Source: Deltaproteobacteria bacterium RBG_16_49_23
Lineage (GTDB): Bacteria > Desulfobacterota > BSN033 > UBA1163
Direction of reading: 5' to 3'
Length of the DNA: 37,485 nt
Assembly: GCA_001798855.1 (NCBI GenBank)
Contig: MGQQ01000068.1
Span: 1 to 37,485, forward strand
Below the pieces are notes generated by a model. It worked only from the letters and a program-made list of their open reading frames with translations, was not told where the DNA came from and did no database searches. The translations under genes and the position numbers were made by a program. Below are positions 7,364 to 28,297 of this stretch, piece by piece. Numbering within the stretch: the stretch's first letter is position 1; every line of letters starts with the position of its first letter.

Positions 7364-8251
7364 CTATCCTCTCGGGTGATATCGCTGATGGATCTTCTTC
7401 AATCTTTCGCCTGTCACATGGGTATAGATCTGTGTCGTGGAGATGTCGACATGGCCAAGCATCAGCTGCACAGAGCGAAGATCCGCCCCCCCTTCAAGGA
7501 GATGGCTGGCGAAAGAATGGCGGAGAAGGTGGGGGGTGATCCTTTTACGGATTCCAGCCTTCCGCCCATAGGCCTTAATGCTCTTCCAGAACTGCTGCCG
7601 GCTCATCGGCCTTCCGGATCGATTGACAAAGAGAAAGGGGCTCTCCCTCTCTTTTAAGAGTCTTTCCCGGGGTTCCCTCATATAGCGTTGCACCCAGTTC
7701 ATCGCCTCGCTGCCGATCGGCACAATCCTCTCTTTTGAACCTTTCCCGTAAAGGAGGGCATATCCCGCTTCGAGTTGGACATGATTGACCTGGAGGCGAA
7801 TCAATTCAGAGACCCTCATGCCTGTGGCATAGAGCATCTCCAGCATGGCCCGATCTCTTATTCCCCTTGGGATCATGGGATCGGGTTGCACCAGCAGCTT
7901 CTCCACCTCCTCCAGGGAGAGGATCTCGGGGAGGGTCCTGGCGATCTTCGGAGATTCGACTTCTTCCGACGGATTGGCGCCCAGAATGCCCTCTTCGGTC
8001 AGGAAGCGAAGGAAGACGCGGATGGAGACCAGATTCCTCGCCAGGGTCTTGCTCGAAAGTCCCTTCTTTTTCAGGAAGAGGAGGAATTCCCTGATATCGA
8101 GCTTTGAAATCTCCCTGGCCTCTTCAATCCCTTTTCCCCGTAAATGGTTTAGAAAGCGATTCAGCCCATGGCTGTAGGCTTCGATCGTATTCCTGGAAAG
8201 GCCCTTTTCGACGATGAGATAATGGAGGAATCGGTCTAACAATTGATGCAT
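7364..8251 (-). CDS. xerD: Tyrosine recombinase XerC/XerD
   Basis: 295 residues, standard length. Resolves chromosome dimers at dif with its partner Xer protein and FtsK. N-terminal SAM-like core-binding domain (about 1-90) and C-terminal catalytic domain. The full catalytic set is visible: R146 (GMRVSEL), K173 (GSKER), H241 and R244 (HLLRHSF), H267 (LGHVD) and nucleophile Y276 (QIYTHV). XerD is favoured over XerC on general resemblance only. Last gene of the rimP-to-xerD cluster, separated from dut by a 47-bp spacer containing a hairpin repeat, and without a strong Shine-Dalgarno sequence. Confidence 0.92.
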   Translation of the reverse strand: MHQLLDRFLHYLIVEKGLSRNTIEAYSHGLNRFLNHLRGKGIEEAREISKLDIREFLLFLKKKGLSSKTLARNLVSIRVFLRFLTEEGILGANPSEEVESPKIARTLPEILSLEEVEKLLVQPDPMIPRGIRDRAMLEMLYATGMRVSELIRLQVNHVQLEAGYALLYGKGSKERIVPIGSEAMNWVQRYMREPRERLLKERESPFLFVNRSGRPMSRQQFWKSIKAYGRKAGIRKRITPHLLRHSFASHLLEGGADLRSVQLMLGHVDISTTQIYTHVTGERLKKIHQRYHPRG

Positions 8252-8252
8252 C

Positions 8253-8281
8253 GTTGCATGGGATGCAACCCTAAAGGGTTG
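8253..8281. repeat. Two overlapping hairpins before xerD
   Basis: A 7-bp perfect stem with 3-base loop (8253-8269) ends one base from the xerD start codon, and overlaps a 6-bp stem with TAAA loop (8266-8281). They share bases 8266-8269 and cannot form together. Looks like a remnant of a common REP-type unit; it could affect xerD translation. Confidence 0.5.
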
Positions 8282-8298
8282 CCCTACGATTAAATTTG

Positions 8299-8748
8299 TC
8301 AGACCCCTGTGTGACCGAAGCCCCCCCCTTGCCTTTGCGTGGGGGGCAATTCGTCCACCTCTACCAGAATCGAACGAAAAACGCGGGAGATCACCATCTG
8401 GGCGATTCTCTCACCGTTACGAAGAGTGAAAGGCTCCTTTCCAAAATTGATCAGGAGGATTCCCACCTCTCCGCGATAGTCCGAATCAATCGTCCCCGGT
8501 CCATTGACCAGGCCAATCCCTTTCTGAATGGCCAACCCGCTGCGGGGTCGAACCTGTCCTTCAAATCCTTTGGGAATGGCAACCGAAATCCCGGTTGGAA
8601 TGAGTCTCCTCTCGCCGGGCAGGAGGGTAACCTCCTCTTCGAGAGAGGCAAAGAGGTCCATTCCGGAGGAACCTTCGGTCATATATTGGGGAAGGGAAAT
8701 GGGGTGATTCTTTTTGAGCCGTCTGATATGGATCTTTACCTGTTCCAT
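8299..8748 (-). CDS. dut: Deoxyuridine 5'-triphosphate nucleotidohydrolase
   Basis: 149 residues from the ATG at 8748. Hydrolyses dUTP to dUMP and pyrophosphate, keeping uracil out of DNA, and complements the uracil-DNA glycosylase nearby. All five trimeric dUTPase motifs are seen: SSGMDL (27-32), RPRSGLA (67-73), GTIDSDYRGE (85-94), ERIAQMV (113-119) and the C-terminal RQGGGFGHTG (139-148). The start is uncertain: ATG 8757 would add three residues and the frame extends further. Both starts lie inside the end of the M16 peptidase gene, so translation is probably coupled. Confidence 0.95.
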   Translation of the reverse strand: MEQVKIHIRRLKKNHPISLPQYMTEGSSGMDLFASLEEEVTLLPGERRLIPTGISVAIPKGFEGQVRPRSGLAIQKGIGLVNGPGTIDSDYRGEVGILLINFGKEPFTLRNGERIAQMVISRVFRSILVEVDELPPTQRQGGGFGHTGV

Positions 8749-10070
8749 TGACCCCATGGTTGCAGATTCCTGTCGAGCTGGCTTCCATCCATGGGGCCCA
8801 GAACGGTGAGGCAAAAGTACTGTTCATCGAAGATCTGGCCGGCCAGGTTTTTGACCATCTCCTCATCGACCTCGTCAATGCCCTTCAGGATGGAGTCCAC
8901 GGTCTGATAGGTTTCAAAGTAGATCTCATTTTTAGCCAGTCGGGTCATTAAACTGTCAGAGCTCTCCATGCTGAGCAGAAGATTGCCCTTCAACTGTTCT
9001 TTAGCGATCTTCAGCTCTCCGTTCTTGAAGGGCTCGGACTTAAGCTTTTTAAACTCTTTCAGGATGAGTTCAATGACCTCTTCGAATGAGCTCTCGTCCG
9101 TTCCCGCATAAACCACGACCAGCCCGGTATCGATATAGGTGGGAAGATAGGAATAGACGGAATAGGCCAGGCCGCGGTTCTCCCTGATCTCCTGAAAGAG
9201 CCGTGAACTCATGCCCCCTCCTAAAATCGTATTCAACACATAAGAGCCAAACCGGAGGGAGTGGTTGTAATGAAGTCCATGGGTGCCCAGACAGAAGTGG
9301 ACCTGTTCCAGATCCCGCTTCAAGACATGGGTGGTGGAGATCGAAAGAGGTTTCACCCTTTCTCTGACATGGTTCGATCTCGAGATCCGGCCAAATGTGG
9401 CTTCGATGAGGTCAACCACGTTCTGATGACAGAGATTCCCTGCCGCACAGACGATGATCCGGTCCGGTTGATACTGGGATCTAAAAAATTGGTCGATCTG
9501 ATCCCGACGGAAGGATTGAACCCGGTCCGCGGTTCCGCAGATCGGAAAGCCAAGGGGATGATCTCCCCAGCAGGTCCGGTTGAAAAGATCGTGGACGTAA
9601 TCGTCGGGCGTATCCTCTACCATCCTGATCTCCTGAAGGATGACCATCCTTTCCTTATCCACATCCTTTTCGTCCAGAAGGGAGTGGAGAAAGATATCGG
9701 AGAGGAGGTCGATGGCAAGGGGCAGGTTTTTATCGATCACTTTGGCATAAAAACAGGTATATTCCCTCCCGGTAAAGGCATTCAGGGTACCGCCCACAGA
9801 GTCGATCTCCTTGGCGATGTCAAAAGCGGTTCTTCGCTCGGTCCCCTTGAAGAGCAGATGTTCGATGAAATGGGAGATTCCGTTTTCGTGCGGCTGCTCA
9901 TCCCTGGATCCCGTGGTAACCCAGATGCCAATGGAGACCGATTTGAGATAGGGAATCTCTTCCGTGATCACTTTAATCCCGTTCTCCAGAACGGTCTTCT
10001 GGTATCCGGGGCCATCCGGCATGGCGGCGGGTTTTAATGAAGAGCACAGTTTACTCTTGATTGAATCCAT
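8736..10070 (-). CDS. M16 family zinc metallopeptidase (processing-peptidase-like)
   Basis: 444 residues. Inverted zinc motif HFIEH with H67, E70 and H71, third ligand probably E147 in LQEIRM. The GGTLNAFTGREYT segment (93-105) and the C-terminal inactive half with RENRGLAYSVYS are typical of the MPP-beta/YmxG group. No signal peptide is visible, so probably cytoplasmic. Starts two bases after the pnp stop; pnp-M16-dut is a widespread order in deltaproteobacteria and Firmicutes. The in vivo substrate is not known for this group. Confidence 0.92.
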   Translation of the reverse strand: MDSIKSKLCSSLKPAAMPDGPGYQKTVLENGIKVITEEIPYLKSVSIGIWVTTGSRDEQPHENGISHFIEHLLFKGTERRTAFDIAKEIDSVGGTLNAFTGREYTCFYAKVIDKNLPLAIDLLSDIFLHSLLDEKDVDKERMVILQEIRMVEDTPDDYVHDLFNRTCWGDHPLGFPICGTADRVQSFRRDQIDQFFRSQYQPDRIIVCAAGNLCHQNVVDLIEATFGRISRSNHVRERVKPLSISTTHVLKRDLEQVHFCLGTHGLHYNHSLRFGSYVLNTILGGGMSSRLFQEIRENRGLAYSVYSYLPTYIDTGLVVVYAGTDESSFEEVIELILKEFKKLKSEPFKNGELKIAKEQLKGNLLLSMESSDSLMTRLAKNEIYFETYQTVDSILKGIDEVDEEMVKNLAGQIFDEQYFCLTVLGPMDGSQLDRNLQPWGQWNR

Positions 10071-10072
10071 GT

Positions 10073-12202
10073 TCAGACCTTCTCTTCGCCCTTGTCCTCT
10101 TTCGAATGCATGTTTTCCTTCAAGGCTGCCTTCCGGCTGAGGCGGATCCGACCCTGCGGGTCAACCTCGATCACCTTGACCGGCATATCATCGCCTTCCT
10201 TCACGATATCGGTCACCTCTTTGACATGATAGTCCGCCAGCTGGGAGATGTGGACCAGGCCATCCGTCCCTGGGAAGATCTCGACAATGGCGCCAAATCC
10301 CATGATCCTCTTTACCTTGCCCATATAGATCGCGCCCACTTCCACTTCCTGGGTGAGCCGTTTGATGATCTGGATGGCTTTTTCAATCGATTCATAATTC
10401 GGCGAGGCTAACTTGACCGCGCCCGAATCCTCCACATCGATTTTCACGCCGGTCTGTTCGACGATCGACCGGATATTCTTGCCTCCCGGTCCGATGATGT
10501 CGCGGATCTTCTCCTGTTTGACCTGGAGCGTGACAATCCTCGGGGCATGCCGGGAGAGATCCTTCCGGGGTTCCGGAAGGGTCTCCCTCATTTTCTCCAG
10601 TATGTAGAGCCTTCCTTCGCGCGACTGCTGAAGGACCCGGCCCAGCACCTCTTTCGATATTCCCTTGATCTTGATATCCATCTGAATGGCAGTGACCCCT
10701 TCGGCTGTGCCCGCCATTTTAAAATCCATATCGCCGATATGATCTTCGTCGCCAAGGATGTCGGAGAGGATCGCCTCCTCCCTGTCTTCGAGAATCAACC
10801 CCATGGCAATCCCGGCCACAGGCGCTTTGATGGGAACGCCCGCATCCATCAGGGAGAGGCTTGCCCCGCAGACGGTGGCCATCGAGGAGGAGCCATTCGA
10901 CTCCAGGACCTCCGAGACGATTCGAATCGTGTAAGGAAATTTTTCGCTGGAGGGAAGAATGGGGAGGATGGCCCTCTCGGCCAGGGCCCCATGGCCGATC
11001 TCTCTTCGAGAAGGCGATCTCAGGGGGGAGACTTCCCCGGTGCTGAACGGAGGAAAGTTGTAGTGAAGCATGAATGACTTATAGGTCTCTCCCATTAAGG
11101 AGTTGATCTTCTGTTCGTCCTCGGAGGTGCCGAAGGTGACCACGGCAAGCACCTGGGTTTCCCCGCGTGTGAACAGGGCGGAGCCGTGGGTTCGTGGAAG
11201 GATCCCGGCTTCACAGGAGATGAGACGAATCTCCGAAAGGCCCCTCCCGTCCATTCTCTCTCTCTTCTCCAGAATCCACCTTCGCTTCAGTTTGCGGTCC
11301 ATATCCTCAAAAACCTTCTTGACCATCTTCTGGGATGGATCATCCTCGGTTCCGCATTCCTTGAGGGTGAGATTTAAAATTTCTTCCAGATGTTCTCGCC
11401 TCTTCGCCTTTTCGGGAATCCGGTAGGCCTCCTGCAATCTCTCCTGCGTGAACCCCCTTACCTTTTCAAAAAGGGTTTCATCGGGTATTTTGAAATTGAC
11501 CTCCCTCTTCTTCAGTCCACAAACTTCTCTCAATTGCTTTTGCAATTCGATGACGGGCTTCAGGGATCGATGTCCGAAAAGAATCGCCTCCAGGATCACC
11601 TCTTCCCTCACCTCTTTCGAACTCCCCTCGACCATGATGATCGCATCTTCGCTTCCGGCGACAAAGAGGTCGATGTCGCTCAACTCCAGTTCGTCGGGGG
11701 CGGGGTTGAGGACATATTCTCCATCGATTTTCCCCACTTTTGCTCCTGCGATAGGAACATCGAAAGGAATATCGGAGAGATAGAGCGCGGCCGAAGCCCC
11801 GATCATTCCCAGGATGGAGGGGTCATGATCCGAATCCGCAGAGAGGACCGTTGCGATGACCTGGGTTTCATTCTGGAATCCTTTTGGAAAGAGGGGTCTC
11901 AGGGGCCGATCGATGAACCGGGAGATGAGAATCTCACGGTCGGTCGGTCTTCCCTCCCTTTTGAAAAAACCTCCGGGGATTCTCCCCGCCGCATACGTCA
12001 TCTCCTGGTAGTTCACCGTAAGGGGGAGAAAGTCAATCCCCTCCCTCTTCTCCTCCGATGACACCGCGGTGACCAGAACGACGGTCTCGCCATACTGAAC
12101 GACCACAGCGCCGCTGGCTTGTTTAGCTACCTTTCCCGTCTCTATGGAAAAGGGTTTCCCTCCAAATTCGATCTGCAGCTTTTGAACCATAGGTTTATTC
12201 AC
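10073..12202 (-). CDS. pnp: Polyribonucleotide nucleotidyltransferase (PNPase)
   Basis: 709 residues, family-typical length. Trimeric 3'-5' phosphorolytic exoribonuclease of the degradosome, also making heteropolymeric tails. Two RNase PH-like domains are separated by a helical linker, then a KH domain (about 557-617, GPGGKN at 571-576) and an S1 domain (about 621-691). M1 at 12202 is chosen over M5 because AGGAGAG lies a few bases upstream of it. Directly follows rpsO, the classic rpsO-pnp pair; the 37-bp spacer shows no clear terminator. In E. coli PNPase autoregulates through this leader; not visible here. Confidence 0.98.
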   Translation of the reverse strand: MNKPMVQKLQIEFGGKPFSIETGKVAKQASGAVVVQYGETVVLVTAVSSEEKREGIDFLPLTVNYQEMTYAAGRIPGGFFKREGRPTDREILISRFIDRPLRPLFPKGFQNETQVIATVLSADSDHDPSILGMIGASAALYLSDIPFDVPIAGAKVGKIDGEYVLNPAPDELELSDIDLFVAGSEDAIIMVEGSSKEVREEVILEAILFGHRSLKPVIELQKQLREVCGLKKREVNFKIPDETLFEKVRGFTQERLQEAYRIPEKAKRREHLEEILNLTLKECGTEDDPSQKMVKKVFEDMDRKLKRRWILEKRERMDGRGLSEIRLISCEAGILPRTHGSALFTRGETQVLAVVTFGTSEDEQKINSLMGETYKSFMLHYNFPPFSTGEVSPLRSPSRREIGHGALAERAILPILPSSEKFPYTIRIVSEVLESNGSSSMATVCGASLSLMDAGVPIKAPVAGIAMGLILEDREEAILSDILGDEDHIGDMDFKMAGTAEGVTAIQMDIKIKGISKEVLGRVLQQSREGRLYILEKMRETLPEPRKDLSRHAPRIVTLQVKQEKIRDIIGPGGKNIRSIVEQTGVKIDVEDSGAVKLASPNYESIEKAIQIIKRLTQEVEVGAIYMGKVKRIMGFGAIVEIFPGTDGLVHISQLADYHVKEVTDIVKEGDDMPVKVIEVDPQGRIRLSRKAALKENMHSKEDKGEEKV

Positions 12203-21991: not shown

Positions 21992-22378
21992 TCAGTTTGT
22001 AAGGGATAACAGGAAATCCTTCAGGCGCTCTAGATCTTCAGGAGAAATATCAATCAGCTTCAAACCCGTCCGATAATCTCCCCAATTCATATCCAGGTGG
22101 ATGTCAATCCACATGACCTCTCCTGTCATCTCGATGGTATTCATACTAGAACCGGAGTGGAAGAAGAGTCTCAGGCTGAGCTGCTGGCCCATCTCCATCT
22201 TTTCCGGAAGGTAAATCAATAATCCCCCTTCGCTCGCATTGAGTGCCCGGCCGGTATGAATAACGGTTGATTGGACCCGGTGATACTCGATGGGCAGGTC
22301 GATCGAAAAACGTGGATACTTCCTTCTTTCGATGTTAACAATCCCAATGCGAGGCTTCCCTTCCTTTGGCGATGTCAT
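21992..22378 (-). CDS. PilZ domain protein 1
   Basis: 128 residues from ATG 22378 (the frame opens earlier, inside the neighbouring PilZ gene; a G-rich ribosome binding site precedes 22378). PilZ binds cyclic di-GMP through RxxxR and (D/N)xSxxG: here R19-R23 in RRKYPR and N47-A-S49-E-G-G52. A Trp/Tyr-Gly-Leu segment near the C-terminus (WGDYRTGLKL) is shared by all three PilZ proteins here. Stand-alone PilZ, no output domain. Overlaps the stop region of nothing; 17 bp after PilZ 2. Confidence 0.9.
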   Translation of the reverse strand: MTSPKEGKPRIGIVNIERRKYPRFSIDLPIEYHRVQSTVIHTGRALNASEGGLLIYLPEKMEMGQQLSLRLFFHSGSSMNTIEMTGEVMWIDIHLDMNWGDYRTGLKLIDISPEDLERLKDFLLSLTN

Positions 22379-22395
22379 CCGCTCCCCCCCTCCCC

Positions 22396-22785
22396 TTAAC
22401 GGTAATTTCGTTGGGTCTCCTCCGGATGGAATTGACCATTCAAGACCTGTTTCAATTTCCAATACTCATGATTCAGAACCTGAATGAATCTCAAGCCATA
22501 CTGGTACCCCTCCCAATCCTCTTCCCAATGGAGGTCTTTCCAGATGATTTCGGCCAGAACCTCGAAATGGGTCAATTCGAAGCCCTTCGGGAATAAGACG
22601 GCGATATTTAATTTTGCCCCAATGGGGATACTTTTCACGGATTGGACAAGGAGGCCGGATTCGCTCGCATTGACCACTAATCCTCCGTGAGCATAAGACG
22701 CATCCATGACACGGTATTCAATGGGTAAGTCCAGCATCTTTCTCTGGGACCTTCTCCTATCTTCCATGGAATTCGACTTCTCCAT
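22396..22785 (-). CDS. PilZ domain protein 2
   Basis: 129 residues. Motif RRRSQR gives R11xxxR15, and N39-A-S41-E-S-G44 gives the second c-di-GMP signature, so binding is likely. The C-terminus again has WEGYQYGLRF. GGAGG lies about 7 bases before ATG. Encoded 21 bp downstream of the large bL12-FxLYD-EndoIII-like gene, so probably in the same transcript. Confidence 0.9.
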   Translation of the reverse strand: MEKSNSMEDRRRSQRKMLDLPIEYRVMDASYAHGGLVVNASESGLLVQSVKSIPIGAKLNIAVLFPKGFELTHFEVLAEIIWKDLHWEEDWEGYQYGLRFIQVLNHEYWKLKQVLNGQFHPEETQRNYR

Positions 22786-24952: not shown

Positions 24953-25345
24953 TCATTTTCCAATTTCCTTCAACAAATTCATCAATCTGACCAATTCGTT
25001 CTCTTCGATGTGGACGAATTGCAACCCGTAACGATACTCTCCCCAACTCTCTTTTGCGGCCAGATCAGCCCAAACGACTTTGGCGACGGCTTTGATCGTG
25101 CTGAATTCCAATCCCTGAACATAAAGGATTTCGATTTTTAATACGACTCCGATCTCCATCCTTTGAGGAAGGTAGACGAGTAATCCTCCTTCGCTCACAT
25201 TGGCGACCATCCCTCCATAAGTCTCTTTATCTTCAACCCGGGTAAAGTCGAGAGGGAATTCAACGCTATATCTTGGGTACCGTCTCTTTTCAACGGAAAG
25301 GACACCTAATTTTCTCTCAGTGGTCGCCCGTTTATTCATATCCAT
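24953..25345 (-). CDS. PilZ domain protein 3
   Basis: 130 residues. RRYPR gives R21xxxR25, and N49-V-S51-E-G-G54 completes the c-di-GMP signature. It is closer to PilZ 1 than PilZ 2 (shared GGLL-YLP after the motif and similar spacing), suggesting local duplication. WGEYRYGLQF near the C-terminus. No clear Shine-Dalgarno sequence before ATG 25345. A 217-bp AT-rich gap with a small imperfect hairpin (24791-24816) separates it from the fusion gene. Confidence 0.9.
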   Translation of the reverse strand: MDMNKRATTERKLGVLSVEKRRYPRYSVEFPLDFTRVEDKETYGGMVANVSEGGLLVYLPQRMEIGVVLKIEILYVQGLEFSTIKAVAKVVWADLAAKESWGEYRYGLQFVHIEENELVRLMNLLKEIGK

Positions 25346-26133: not shown

Positions 26134-26178
26134 AATAACTTATGATGAGCAATTACTATGCCAAAAATGGTTTGTAAT

Positions 26179-26207
26179 TTGATTTCTTATTTTTTACCAG
26201 TTATAAT
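26179..26207 (+). promoter_or_regulatory. Near-consensus sigma70 promoter for the small RNA
   Basis: -35 TTGATT (26179-26184, 4 of 6), exactly 17 bp, -10 TATAAT (26202-26207, 6 of 6). Predicted start near 26214, right at the foot of the first hairpin. No ORF follows, which marks it as an RNA-gene promoter. Confidence 0.75.
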
Positions 26208-26213
26208 AAACAA

Positions 26214-26307
26214 GCCGGTGCATCAAACCATATCACCTCCTTGTTTCACCCCCATTTGATGCATTGGTTGGGATCAGTTAAAGCCCTCCTCTAACTGATC
26301 CCTTTTT
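26214..26307 (+). ncRNA. Candidate small RNA with anti-Shine-Dalgarno loop
   Basis: About 94 nt. Hairpin 1: 13-bp stem with two G-U pairs (26215-26227 with 26255-26267) and a 27-base C-rich loop. The loop contains ATCACCTCCTT (26232-26242), identical to the 3' tail of bacterial 16S rRNA, plus a CACCCCCA stretch. Hairpin 2 is an intrinsic terminator whose 11-base loop also has CCTCCTC. Promoter, RNA and terminator fit together with no ORF. The layout recalls C-rich-loop regulators such as actinobacterial 6C RNA, but no homology is claimed. It could pair with ribosome binding sites. Alternative: on the minus strand the same loops show GGAGG and an AAGGAGGTGAT-ATG followed at once by a stop. Confidence 0.65.
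26270..26307 (+). terminator. Intrinsic terminator of the small RNA
   Basis: Perfect 11-bp stem (26270-26280 with 26292-26302), 11-base loop, then five T's (26303-26307). On the minus strand the same hairpin lacks a T-run, which fixes the direction. Beyond it, 26308-26650 is AT-rich and holds no gene I can support. Confidence 0.85.
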
Positions 26308-26650
26308 GTTTACCCAATGGTTTTAAGTAGTTAAATTTACTTTCAACATTTTTTGTTTATACCCTGTTGATAACTTAATATTTTAGGATTCAAAATGGCG
26401 TATCTTTCATTTTTTTCACCTTTTGCCTAATCTTTAATCAATAAAAAGTATTGTTTTTACAATGTCTTATAAGGTTTTTAGCCACCTATTCCTATCCATA
26501 TCCTCCCCGATTTAAGGTTAAACACAAACCATAATCCTAATTTCGATTTGACTCACTTCATTTATAAACATGGGAGGACCAAGGATTGAATAATAACTTA
26601 CAGGATTTAAAGGATAAGAGTCAAGGTTTTTTGAGGACTTGAAGGGAATC

Positions 26651-28297
26651 TCATCGGCTTTTATGAACCGGATTAAAGTATTCACGGATGCTTCCTAAAA
26701 CGATATGAGGGATATCTTCCTTTTTTTTCACCTTAAAAATATTGATATTCTTCCTCTTCTCCACCGCCTTTTCAAACCGTGAAGCATAAGGATTTTCTCC
26801 GATATGGACCGCTGTAACCCTGTTCTGGATCTTCCCGAAGAATCCGATCAGGGTTTCCAGGTTGGTAATCTTCATATCCGTGATAATGAAAAGATCCAGC
26901 TCCTTTCTTCCCTTAATCAGGGGCATGATATCTTCCAGGTCCAATGCCGTTCCGCCTCCAAAATATCTGCAGAGCACACGGTAGACTTCTTCGCGTTTAT
27001 CGGTATAATCGAGAACATCTCGTCCACCCATTGGGGCATCGCTAAAATTATAGACCGCCACTTTTGAATCGTTCCTCAGATAGGCATTGGTTGCGCAGGC
27101 GGCCCCCAAGACTGCATAGGAAAGGTTTTTCCGGGGATTGATCATACTTCCCGATGAATCGATGATGATCAGACAGTCCGGCGTCCCGTCGATTTTCCCC
27201 CGGCCTTTTCCTTCTTTCTTCTTCCAGACCTGTGTGATTCCTGGCATGATTTTCCCAAAACTTGTCCAGATATCGATGTCCTGAAAGGGCGATCCGATCT
27301 CCCAGGGTGAATGGGAATGGGGATGGAGAGTTCCTGTCTCTTCGATGGGAACTTTCTTTAATGGAATAGAATAATTTTCAGCCAGTTTCATATAGAAGAG
27401 GACATCGGAATCGATGGGAGCCCCCCTCCCCCTACCCATTCCGCCTTCAATTCCATAACCCATTTCCTTCAGCTCTTTGGAGAAGTCATCCACGACCTCT
27501 TTGAAGTCTGAAAGCCCCATGGTCTTTTGAGCATAATCCCTTAGCCCCTCGTCGATCTCTTCATAGGAGTAATGATTCAGATCATGCTCTCCCTGAGGGT
27601 TGGACTCCCCTTTCCCACCTCTGGCCTCCTGTTCCTTCTGTTCCAGGAGGAGAAGAGGTTTAAGGGAGCGGGCAAACTTCCGGATGCTTTCAGACCACCT
27701 GGAGCGATCCAGATAGGGAATCCTCGCAAGCCTTCGGACGACCTCCTCGTTGCCTTTTTCGCCCTTTTTAGACGGAGCGACGCCCAGATCGATTCCCCAG
27801 ATCCTCTGATAGAGAGAAGCAATCACCGCCTCAACGTTCCCCTTCTTAATATTTCGATGTAATTCCGGGATCTCCGTTGCCCTTTTTTTAACGCAATGGG
27901 TATCGGCAATCACGTCGATAAAGTAGTTGGCTACCTGCTTGGCCGACTCCTTATCCCCCATCACCTTTTTGGCTTCCGCATAGAGCATGAGGTGGGTATG
28001 GAAATCCCAGGGGCAGAAGGTGTAGTGAGTAATTCCGTGATCGAGTAAAGCCTCCACCAGATTATCCTCCGCCATCTTACCCTTCATGCTGGAGAGAAAG
28101 AGCGGGTTGAGGGTCATCTGTTTCCCTTTCATCTCCAATCCAACCCTAACTTCCGCGGAGTCATCCTTCTCATTTTCTTCATCAAAAGAATCGGAGACCT
28201 TCCCGACCTTCGGGATGGGGATCTCAGGGTAGAGATGTTTTCTTTTCAACCGGGGCCAGATTTCTTCGATGAGGGCCTGTAGCTCTTTTTCTTCCAT
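26651..28297 (-). CDS. VWA-domain protein with degenerate zincin-like N-terminus
   Basis: 548 residues, cytoplasmic. C-terminal von Willebrand A domain (about 373-540) with full MIDAS: D380-S-S-G-S384, T450 (GGGT) and D474 (ITD), so it should bind Mg. The N-terminal part has DHGITH (86-91), resembling HExxH of VWA-linked putative metallopeptidases (DUF2201-like) but with Gly for the catalytic Glu, and further His/Asp at FHTH (99-102) and ADTHC (131-135). A Gly-rich stretch lies at 285-293. Third gene of the MoxR-GXGXG-VWA operon, 7 bp after the second, with AGGTGA before ATG. MoxR ATPase and VWA pairs act as cofactor-insertion chaperones. Confidence 0.8.
   Translation of the reverse strand: MEEKELQALIEEIWPRLKRKHLYPEIPIPKVGKVSDSFDEENEKDDSAEVRVGLEMKGKQMTLNPLFLSSMKGKMAEDNLVEALLDHGITHYTFCPWDFHTHLMLYAEAKKVMGDKESAKQVANYFIDVIADTHCVKKRATEIPELHRNIKKGNVEAVIASLYQRIWGIDLGVAPSKKGEKGNEEVVRRLARIPYLDRSRWSESIRKFARSLKPLLLLEQKEQEARGGKGESNPQGEHDLNHYSYEEIDEGLRDYAQKTMGLSDFKEVVDDFSKELKEMGYGIEGGMGRGRGAPIDSDVLFYMKLAENYSIPLKKVPIEETGTLHPHSHSPWEIGSPFQDIDIWTSFGKIMPGITQVWKKKEGKGRGKIDGTPDCLIIIDSSGSMINPRKNLSYAVLGAACATNAYLRNDSKVAVYNFSDAPMGGRDVLDYTDKREEVYRVLCRYFGGGTALDLEDIMPLIKGRKELDLFIITDMKITNLETLIGFFGKIQNRVTAVHIGENPYASRFEKAVEKRKNINIFKVKKKEDIPHIVLGSIREYFNPVHKSR

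Follow-up and report, generated by a model that had tools for sequence, protein, structure and literature searches.

An apparently new, lineage-restricted small RNA family in a class of Thermodesulfobacteriota, with the leader of an M23 endopeptidase gene as its predicted target

The locus at positions 26214 to 26307 of the window (the whole 37,485-nt stretch analysed here, from Deltaproteobacteria bacterium RBG_16_49_23) specifies a member of a small RNA family that is real, apparently new, restricted to one lineage, and of a known functional kind. What computation shows is the RNA itself, the strand from which it is read, its fold and its conservation; its complementarity to an M23 endopeptidase leader, together with the rank of that leader among the starts sampled; and, in a few species, a loop and a leader that changed jointly. 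On balance we favor the view that the RNA acts in trans, covers the M23 ribosome-binding site and lowers M23 translation, in a mode like that of NfeR1. The features on which the argument turns are these:

26179 to 26207, plus strand: putative promoter, with -35 TTGATT at 26179-26184, a 17-nt spacer and -10 TATAAT at 26202-26207; 16 of the 17 family copies have TTGAT[TA] ahead of them.
26214 to 26307, plus strand: small RNA of about 94 nt, ends predicted, indicated by fold z-score, covariance-model matches, compensatory pairs and a strand test.
26214 to 26268, plus strand: hairpin 1, 14 pairs (26214-26227 with 26255-26268) closing a 27-nt C-rich loop (26228-26254) that holds the 11-mer ATCACCTCCTT at 26232-26242; 9 of the 14 pairs show two-sided changes among the 17 family copies.
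26237 to 26251, plus strand: predicted seed CTCCTTGTTTCACCC, 15 contiguous pairs (one G-U) with the M23 leader of the same genome (G000:C56).
26270 to 26307, plus strand: hairpin 2 and U-tract, a predicted intrinsic terminator, 11 pairs (26270-26280 with 26292-26302), CCCTCCTC in the loop at 26284-26291 (17/17 family copies) and TTTTT at 26303-26307.

For the 111-nt stretch 26205-26315 the predicted folding energy is -36.8 kcal/mol, where its shuffles give -16.7 (sd 2.9; z = -6.9), and none of 200 shuffles equalled it. A generic promoter scan found 3 promoters where shuffles led us to expect 3.6, which is not above chance, and a generic scan reported no terminator, since its loop limit is 8 nt. 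The case for the putative promoter and terminator is carried by conservation, not by these scans. The TTGAT[TA] element is accompanied by a TATAAT-like -10 before the same 16 copies; the exception, the second copy in genome G012 (copy b), lacks a -35 of this kind, and in G003 our script picked a poorer -10 only 3 nt ahead of the hairpin. No open reading frame of at least 20 aa lies within the transcript, and the sole overlapping one (33 aa) starts at 26158, upstream of the promoter. Sequence and conservation agree on what is probably a free-standing unit with its own promoter and terminator. An Rfam 15 scan of the window found no family at gathering score; relaxing the threshold at the locus to E 10 brought just four chance matches to snoRNA and microRNA families, and four loci from two related families (f2 and f3, below) gave implausible eukaryotic or archaeal chance matches at lax E-values and no bacterial small RNA family. 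The sequence-only reading had described this promoter, the lack of a coding frame and a terminator with a C-rich loop, and in all three it was right; its hairpin, loop and placing of the 11-mer also stand, with 14 pairs in the stem in place of its 13.

The structure is borne out by the way the stems have changed. Within the 17 copies of the window's family (f1), hairpin 2 has 10 of its 11 pairs invariant. When f2 and f3 are added, two-sided changes are seen in 15 of the 25 pairs, four of them among the 11 of hairpin 2, and the C-rich loops are kept. In this enlarged alignment the share of cells that pair is 95.1%, and not one of 500 shuffles attains any of the five measures, figures that favor the structure because the alignment was fitted to the model. 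Wobble pairs give the strand: the 17-copy alignment contains 26 G-U cells against 5 A-C/C-A cells, and this excess of G-U on the plus reading makes plus the RNA strand.

A DNA search returned strong matches (E ≤2.5e-19) in all nine other genomes of the same genus and in six of seven further family members. Our genome has one copy of the RNA, so the idea of a multicopy element was rejected; G012 has two, of which copy b (G012:C56:27990-28078) is diverged and lacks both the usual -35 and the sigma54-like element described below. A covariance model of the 17 family copies (R1) matches 16 of 17 family genomes and two f2 genomes (E 2.6e-10 and 6.0e-10). A second model (R2), made of 16 family copies, two from f2 and one from f3, finds the RNA at E ≤4.8e-4 in 20 of the 23 class genomes (f1 16/17, f2 2/4, f3 2/2); one of the two f3 matches, G019, comes by construction, since G019 is itself in R2, and the other, G018, is outside the model. 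Scored by R1, G019 has an E of 0.0466. With R2 the RNA was not found in G010, G017 and G020, where it is either absent or unassembled; a weak match in G010 (E 0.918) was rejected as lacking the two hairpins. Over 395 genomes of the phylum, R2 under strict filters, with 10 candidates scored per genome so that weak relatives may be missed, gave 15 positives, and R1 gave 13, every one of them inside the class. The named relatives are metagenome-assembled genomes, for example Syntrophaceae bacterium UBA2208, UBA2188 and UBA1163, and NCBI taxonomy places UBA2208 in Syntrophia, Thermodesulfobacteriota. In assembling the alignments we left G015 out of alignment A6, where a minus-strand chance match came along, replaced the row L068, which was out of register, by the trimmed stretch L071, and dropped 13 matches of 14 to 29 bits as minus-strand readings of the near-palindromic terminator. 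The check proposed from the letters of one contig, a covariance search of related genomes with both hairpins and a look for compensatory stem changes around conserved C-rich loops, bears out a plus-strand small RNA with conserved stems, and the contrary pattern, in which a minus-strand frame is conserved and stems and promoter are not, did not occur.

The same reading took identity with the 16S rRNA tail to be the key feature, and here it fared less well. The 11-mer ATCACCTCCTT, which we take to equal the 16S 3′ end, is exact in 9 of the 17 family copies and in none of four f2/f3 copies (two of each). Loops of the window's family contain CACCTCC or CACCCCC and CCCTCCTC. The f2 copies have CTGTTTCACCTCCC as loop 1 and CCCTCC within loop 2, and those of f3 have TTTACCTCCC within loop 1 and six consecutive C in loop 2. 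Judged from these sequences, the trait common to the three families is a pair of C-rich loops complementary to Shine-Dalgarno (SD) sequences, not rRNA identity, and the likeness to 16S would be a by-product of a loop that complements a ribosome-binding site. Loop 1 also has a conserved part, GTTTCACC, outside the SD-complementary stretch (12/17 family copies). The f3 copies (G019, G018) have a longer terminator hairpin whose CCCCCC loop gives them an outward resemblance to 6C RNA.

A loop-1 match in G016 gave the lead to a target, since its opposite strand is an M23 endopeptidase leader; G004 shows the same match, ahead of a protein with domain PF01551. Orthologs of this protein (E ≤1e-40) are present in 20 of the 23 class genomes. 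Among 14 M23 leaders from the family, six have exact TGAAACAAGG directly ahead of the start codon, five more (G008 and G011-G014) have a near form by eye, and CTTGACA lies upstream of the gene in 13. Pfam matches in G008 give the order fabH-like, pmbA/tldD-like, M23, secA, and G004 looks alike by eye; the M23 gene directly upstream of secA can be seen in G008:C20:35000-50000, at local positions 7577-11320.

When loop 1 was paired with gene starts of its own genome, the longest contiguous helix, G-U allowed, fell in the M23 leader in all three genomes sampled (rank 1 of 188 in G000, 1 of 108 in G004 and 1 of 265 in G008, with 15, 16 and 14 pairs), ranks that refer to a minority of gene starts, called by a simple script, and to contigs some of which, in our own genome, were picked for loop-like matches, a bias that works against the M23 rank. 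By duplex energy the same leader ranks 1, 1 and 12. A helix of at least 10 contiguous pairs, G-U allowed, can join loop and leader in 10 of the 13 family genomes that have both parts, a conserved complementarity to a translation start region encoded elsewhere; the exceptions are G007 (9 pairs), G003 (8) and G009 (6), the last with an intact RNA and an M23 leader devoid of complementarity. Six to eight pairs are left in f2 and f3. The 11-mer GTGAAACAAGG has three occurrences in our own genome: the M23 leader, the antisense of the small RNA, and the inside of a long open frame. Cofolding the RNA with its own leader gives -58.9 kcal/mol against -33.8 and -7.8 for the two apart, the model used being unable to represent a kissing interaction between loop and leader. 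The genome has an hfq gene. These results bear on the earlier suggestion of broad translational control: target prediction against ribosome-binding sites made one leader stand out, not many, and among the sampled starts it is the M23 leader that extended pairing singles out, short SD-type pairing elsewhere being possible. The original observation holds; its reading is partly supported.

Loop and leader have changed together in a few genomes. G008 is the only one of 13 genomes with loop CTCCTATTTCACCC, and its leader, GGGTGAAATAGGAG, pairs with that loop over 14 positions with a score of 35; the G008 leader scores at most 26 with other loops, and the G008 loop at most 23 with other leaders. Duplex energy runs contrary to this, in that the G008 loop fits the leaders of G016 and G010 better than its own. 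Copy b of G012 has loop AAGCTCCTT and fits the G012 leader, AAGGAGCTT, better than copy a does. G003 has lost the element from its leader; its loop is degenerate, and 8 pairs are kept. Permuting leaders among the 13 genomes gave p values of 0.005-0.037, and of 0.0017-0.024 for the 11 that remain when the two discovery genomes are removed; further removal of G008 gave 0.011-0.20, and of G008 and G003 0.037-0.47, all of these with relatedness ignored. Such co-variation as the sequences suggest rests on few genomes, and G009 is an exception to it. In G010 the leader is similar to the family's and the RNA was not found: a search there for a small RNA matching its own leader gave 41 pattern places against 30 for the control, the only exact match was the leader itself, and inspection of 30 loci turned up no convincing RNA.

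Over the 23 genomes the exact 11-mer GTGAAACAAGG occurs at 47 places, against 24 for a backward control; 10 of the 47 are the antisense of the small RNA and four are M23 leaders, contexts having been inspected for 32. Two sequences recur among the remaining places (L185/L202 and L196/L197). A search with an 18-mer of loop 1, allowing up to three mismatches, led us to inspect 13 stretches; the M23 leader of our own genome, absent from that list, surfaced by protein search. Besides M23, matches to the 18-mer lie before a start codon on C141 of our own genome, C68 of G006 and C162 of G007. The first of these (G000:C141:27600-29100) precedes an ORF that by eye is response-regulator-like; its leader, AAGGTGAAACAAGAAGGT, fits loop 1 less well and is possibly a second target. 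A loop-like match on C41 of the same genome was rejected, there being no gene start with the site. In three sampled genomes loop 2 can match several SDs along 8 to 12 positions and, as a specific second seed, has no recurrent partner.

The surroundings of the RNA are partly conserved. Of 19 loci examined, some of them truncated, 15 gave the divergent DUF4124 gene (PF13511; 25618-26133 in the window), 10 the nearest PilZ gene and 13 the ORF at 26651-28297. The f2 RNA likewise adjoins a DUF4124 gene, beyond which comes a PilZ gene. Copy b of G012 sits elsewhere, on a stretch where none of the three neighbor proteins was found. In the window a PilZ-domain gene (PF07238) at 24953-25345 is next to the DUF4124 gene, two more PilZ-like ORFs can be made out by eye in the region 21992-22785, and relatives give several matches to the PilZ protein. 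The consensus of sigma54 -24/-12 promoters is of the type TTGGCAY-N4-ATTGC. An element of this kind lies at 26149-26164 on the minus strand ahead of the DUF4124 gene and is kept in 16 of the 17 family copies; because it ends 15 nt before the DUF4124 ATG, almost no leader would remain. G001 retains the element, though the DUF4124 gene was not found there.

In the scheme that we favor, the locus would give rise to a trans-acting RNA of about 94 nt, presumably transcribed in the cell from its own promoter. Hairpin 1 would offer a single-stranded C-rich loop of 27 nt and hairpin 2 would serve as terminator, with a second C-rich loop. Loop 1 would then pair with the M23 mRNA, whose gene lies just before secA, at its translation start region, and by hiding the SD sequence there would reduce the translation of the peptidoglycan endopeptidase; we infer repression rather than activation. 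Assistance by Hfq, an effect on secA and a trigger may also belong to the scheme. A larger claim, one that is possible and that we advance tentatively, is that this family, specific to a small class of Thermodesulfobacteriota, is largely dedicated to the M23-secA mRNA, tracks its leader by compensatory change, and ties the opening of the cell wall, and perhaps the supply of SecA, to an RNA switch. The anti-SD appearance of the loops would then follow, since the main target site includes the SD sequence.

That appearance can be read in another way. Both C-rich loops might pair with many ribosome-binding sites, M23 being one of many, as in a broad anti-SD regulator comparable to the cuckoo RNA alpha-r14. 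Loops complementary to the SD are what the three families have in common, the CCCTCCTC loop is unvaried in all 17 family copies and makes its 8 to 12 pairs with several SDs, and G009 retains the RNA without an M23 site, all of which such a regulator would account for; the extended pairing that picks out one leader, the want of a recurrent partner for loop 2 in three genomes, and the conservation of loop 1 beyond its SD-complementary part fit it poorly, and we regard it as rather doubtful. The RNA might also act as decoy or scaffold for some protein with affinity for C-rich or anti-SD-like RNA, which would suit its two exposed C-rich loops and the fixed sequence of the terminator loop within the family. 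The sequence-only reading had named a protein decoy too, and nothing in the present results favored it; the role is improbable in our estimation, because it leaves unexplained both the complementarity to the leader and the joint changes in G008 and in copy b of G012.

A cis-acting element, whether leader, attenuator or terminator of a neighboring gene, would draw on the partly conserved neighborhood (DUF4124 gene in 15/19 loci, ORF 26651-28297 in 13/19, with some loci cut short). It is very improbable: the upstream gene diverges from the RNA and the next ORF converges on it, so that no plus-strand gene lies downstream in the window, and on the stretch around copy b of G012 none of the three neighbor proteins was found. 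We give almost no credence to the notion that the real product is a minus-strand RNA resembling CsrB or RsmZ, for which it can be said that both loops read GGAGG or nearly so on that strand; stem variants form G-U in 26 cells on plus and 5 on minus, and promoter and U-tract are both on the plus side.

The trans-acting repressor that we prefer has parallels among known RNAs. PMC10746234 reports, from experiment, that NfeR1 silences ntrB through anti-SD loop motifs that pair with the translation start region, that NfeR1 is Hfq-independent, and that alpha-r14 (a cuckoo RNA) has three hairpins, each with the ultraconserved CCUCCUCCC in unpaired regions. The likeness between these α-proteobacterial RNAs and ours consists in anti-SD hairpin loops directed toward translation start regions; alpha-r14 differs in having three hairpins to our two, CCTCCTCCC is absent from all 17 family copies and all 19 model sequences, and we claim no homology. 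The present RNA has no match in Rfam, which may not include every cuckoo family.

6C RNA consists of a pair of stem-loops with six consecutive C in each. In Actinobacteria it is a stable small RNA with C-rich loops, according to PMC9569102. The two stem-loops and C-rich loops are shared with our RNA, and f3 copies have CCCCCC in the second loop only; 6C RNA belongs to another phylum, the window copy has no run of six C, and the 6C Rfam family gave no match up to E 10 at the locus nor up to E 1 in the four f2/f3 loci. LytM is an M23-family enzyme. RNAIII of Staphylococcus aureus, a 514-nt RNA that encodes Hld, appears in a review's list as directly targeting lytM with inhibition of translation (PMC9266662). 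On that evidence the analogy is one of kind of target only, RNAIII being far longer and coding. Searches of the open-licence literature on anti-SD loop small RNAs, 6C-type RNAs, δ-proteobacterial small RNAs, cuckoo RNA and small RNAs acting on M23 enzymes brought up nothing that described the present RNA by title or abstract.

What the finding offers is an RNA family absent from Rfam 15 that has both support from co-variation and a concrete predicted target. The pairs found in G008 and in copy b of G012 are natural compensatory pairs, useful for asking how the loops of small RNAs and ribosome-binding sites co-evolve. For the bacteria that carry it, the family may indicate that a peptidoglycan endopeptidase whose gene adjoins secA is controlled post-transcriptionally.
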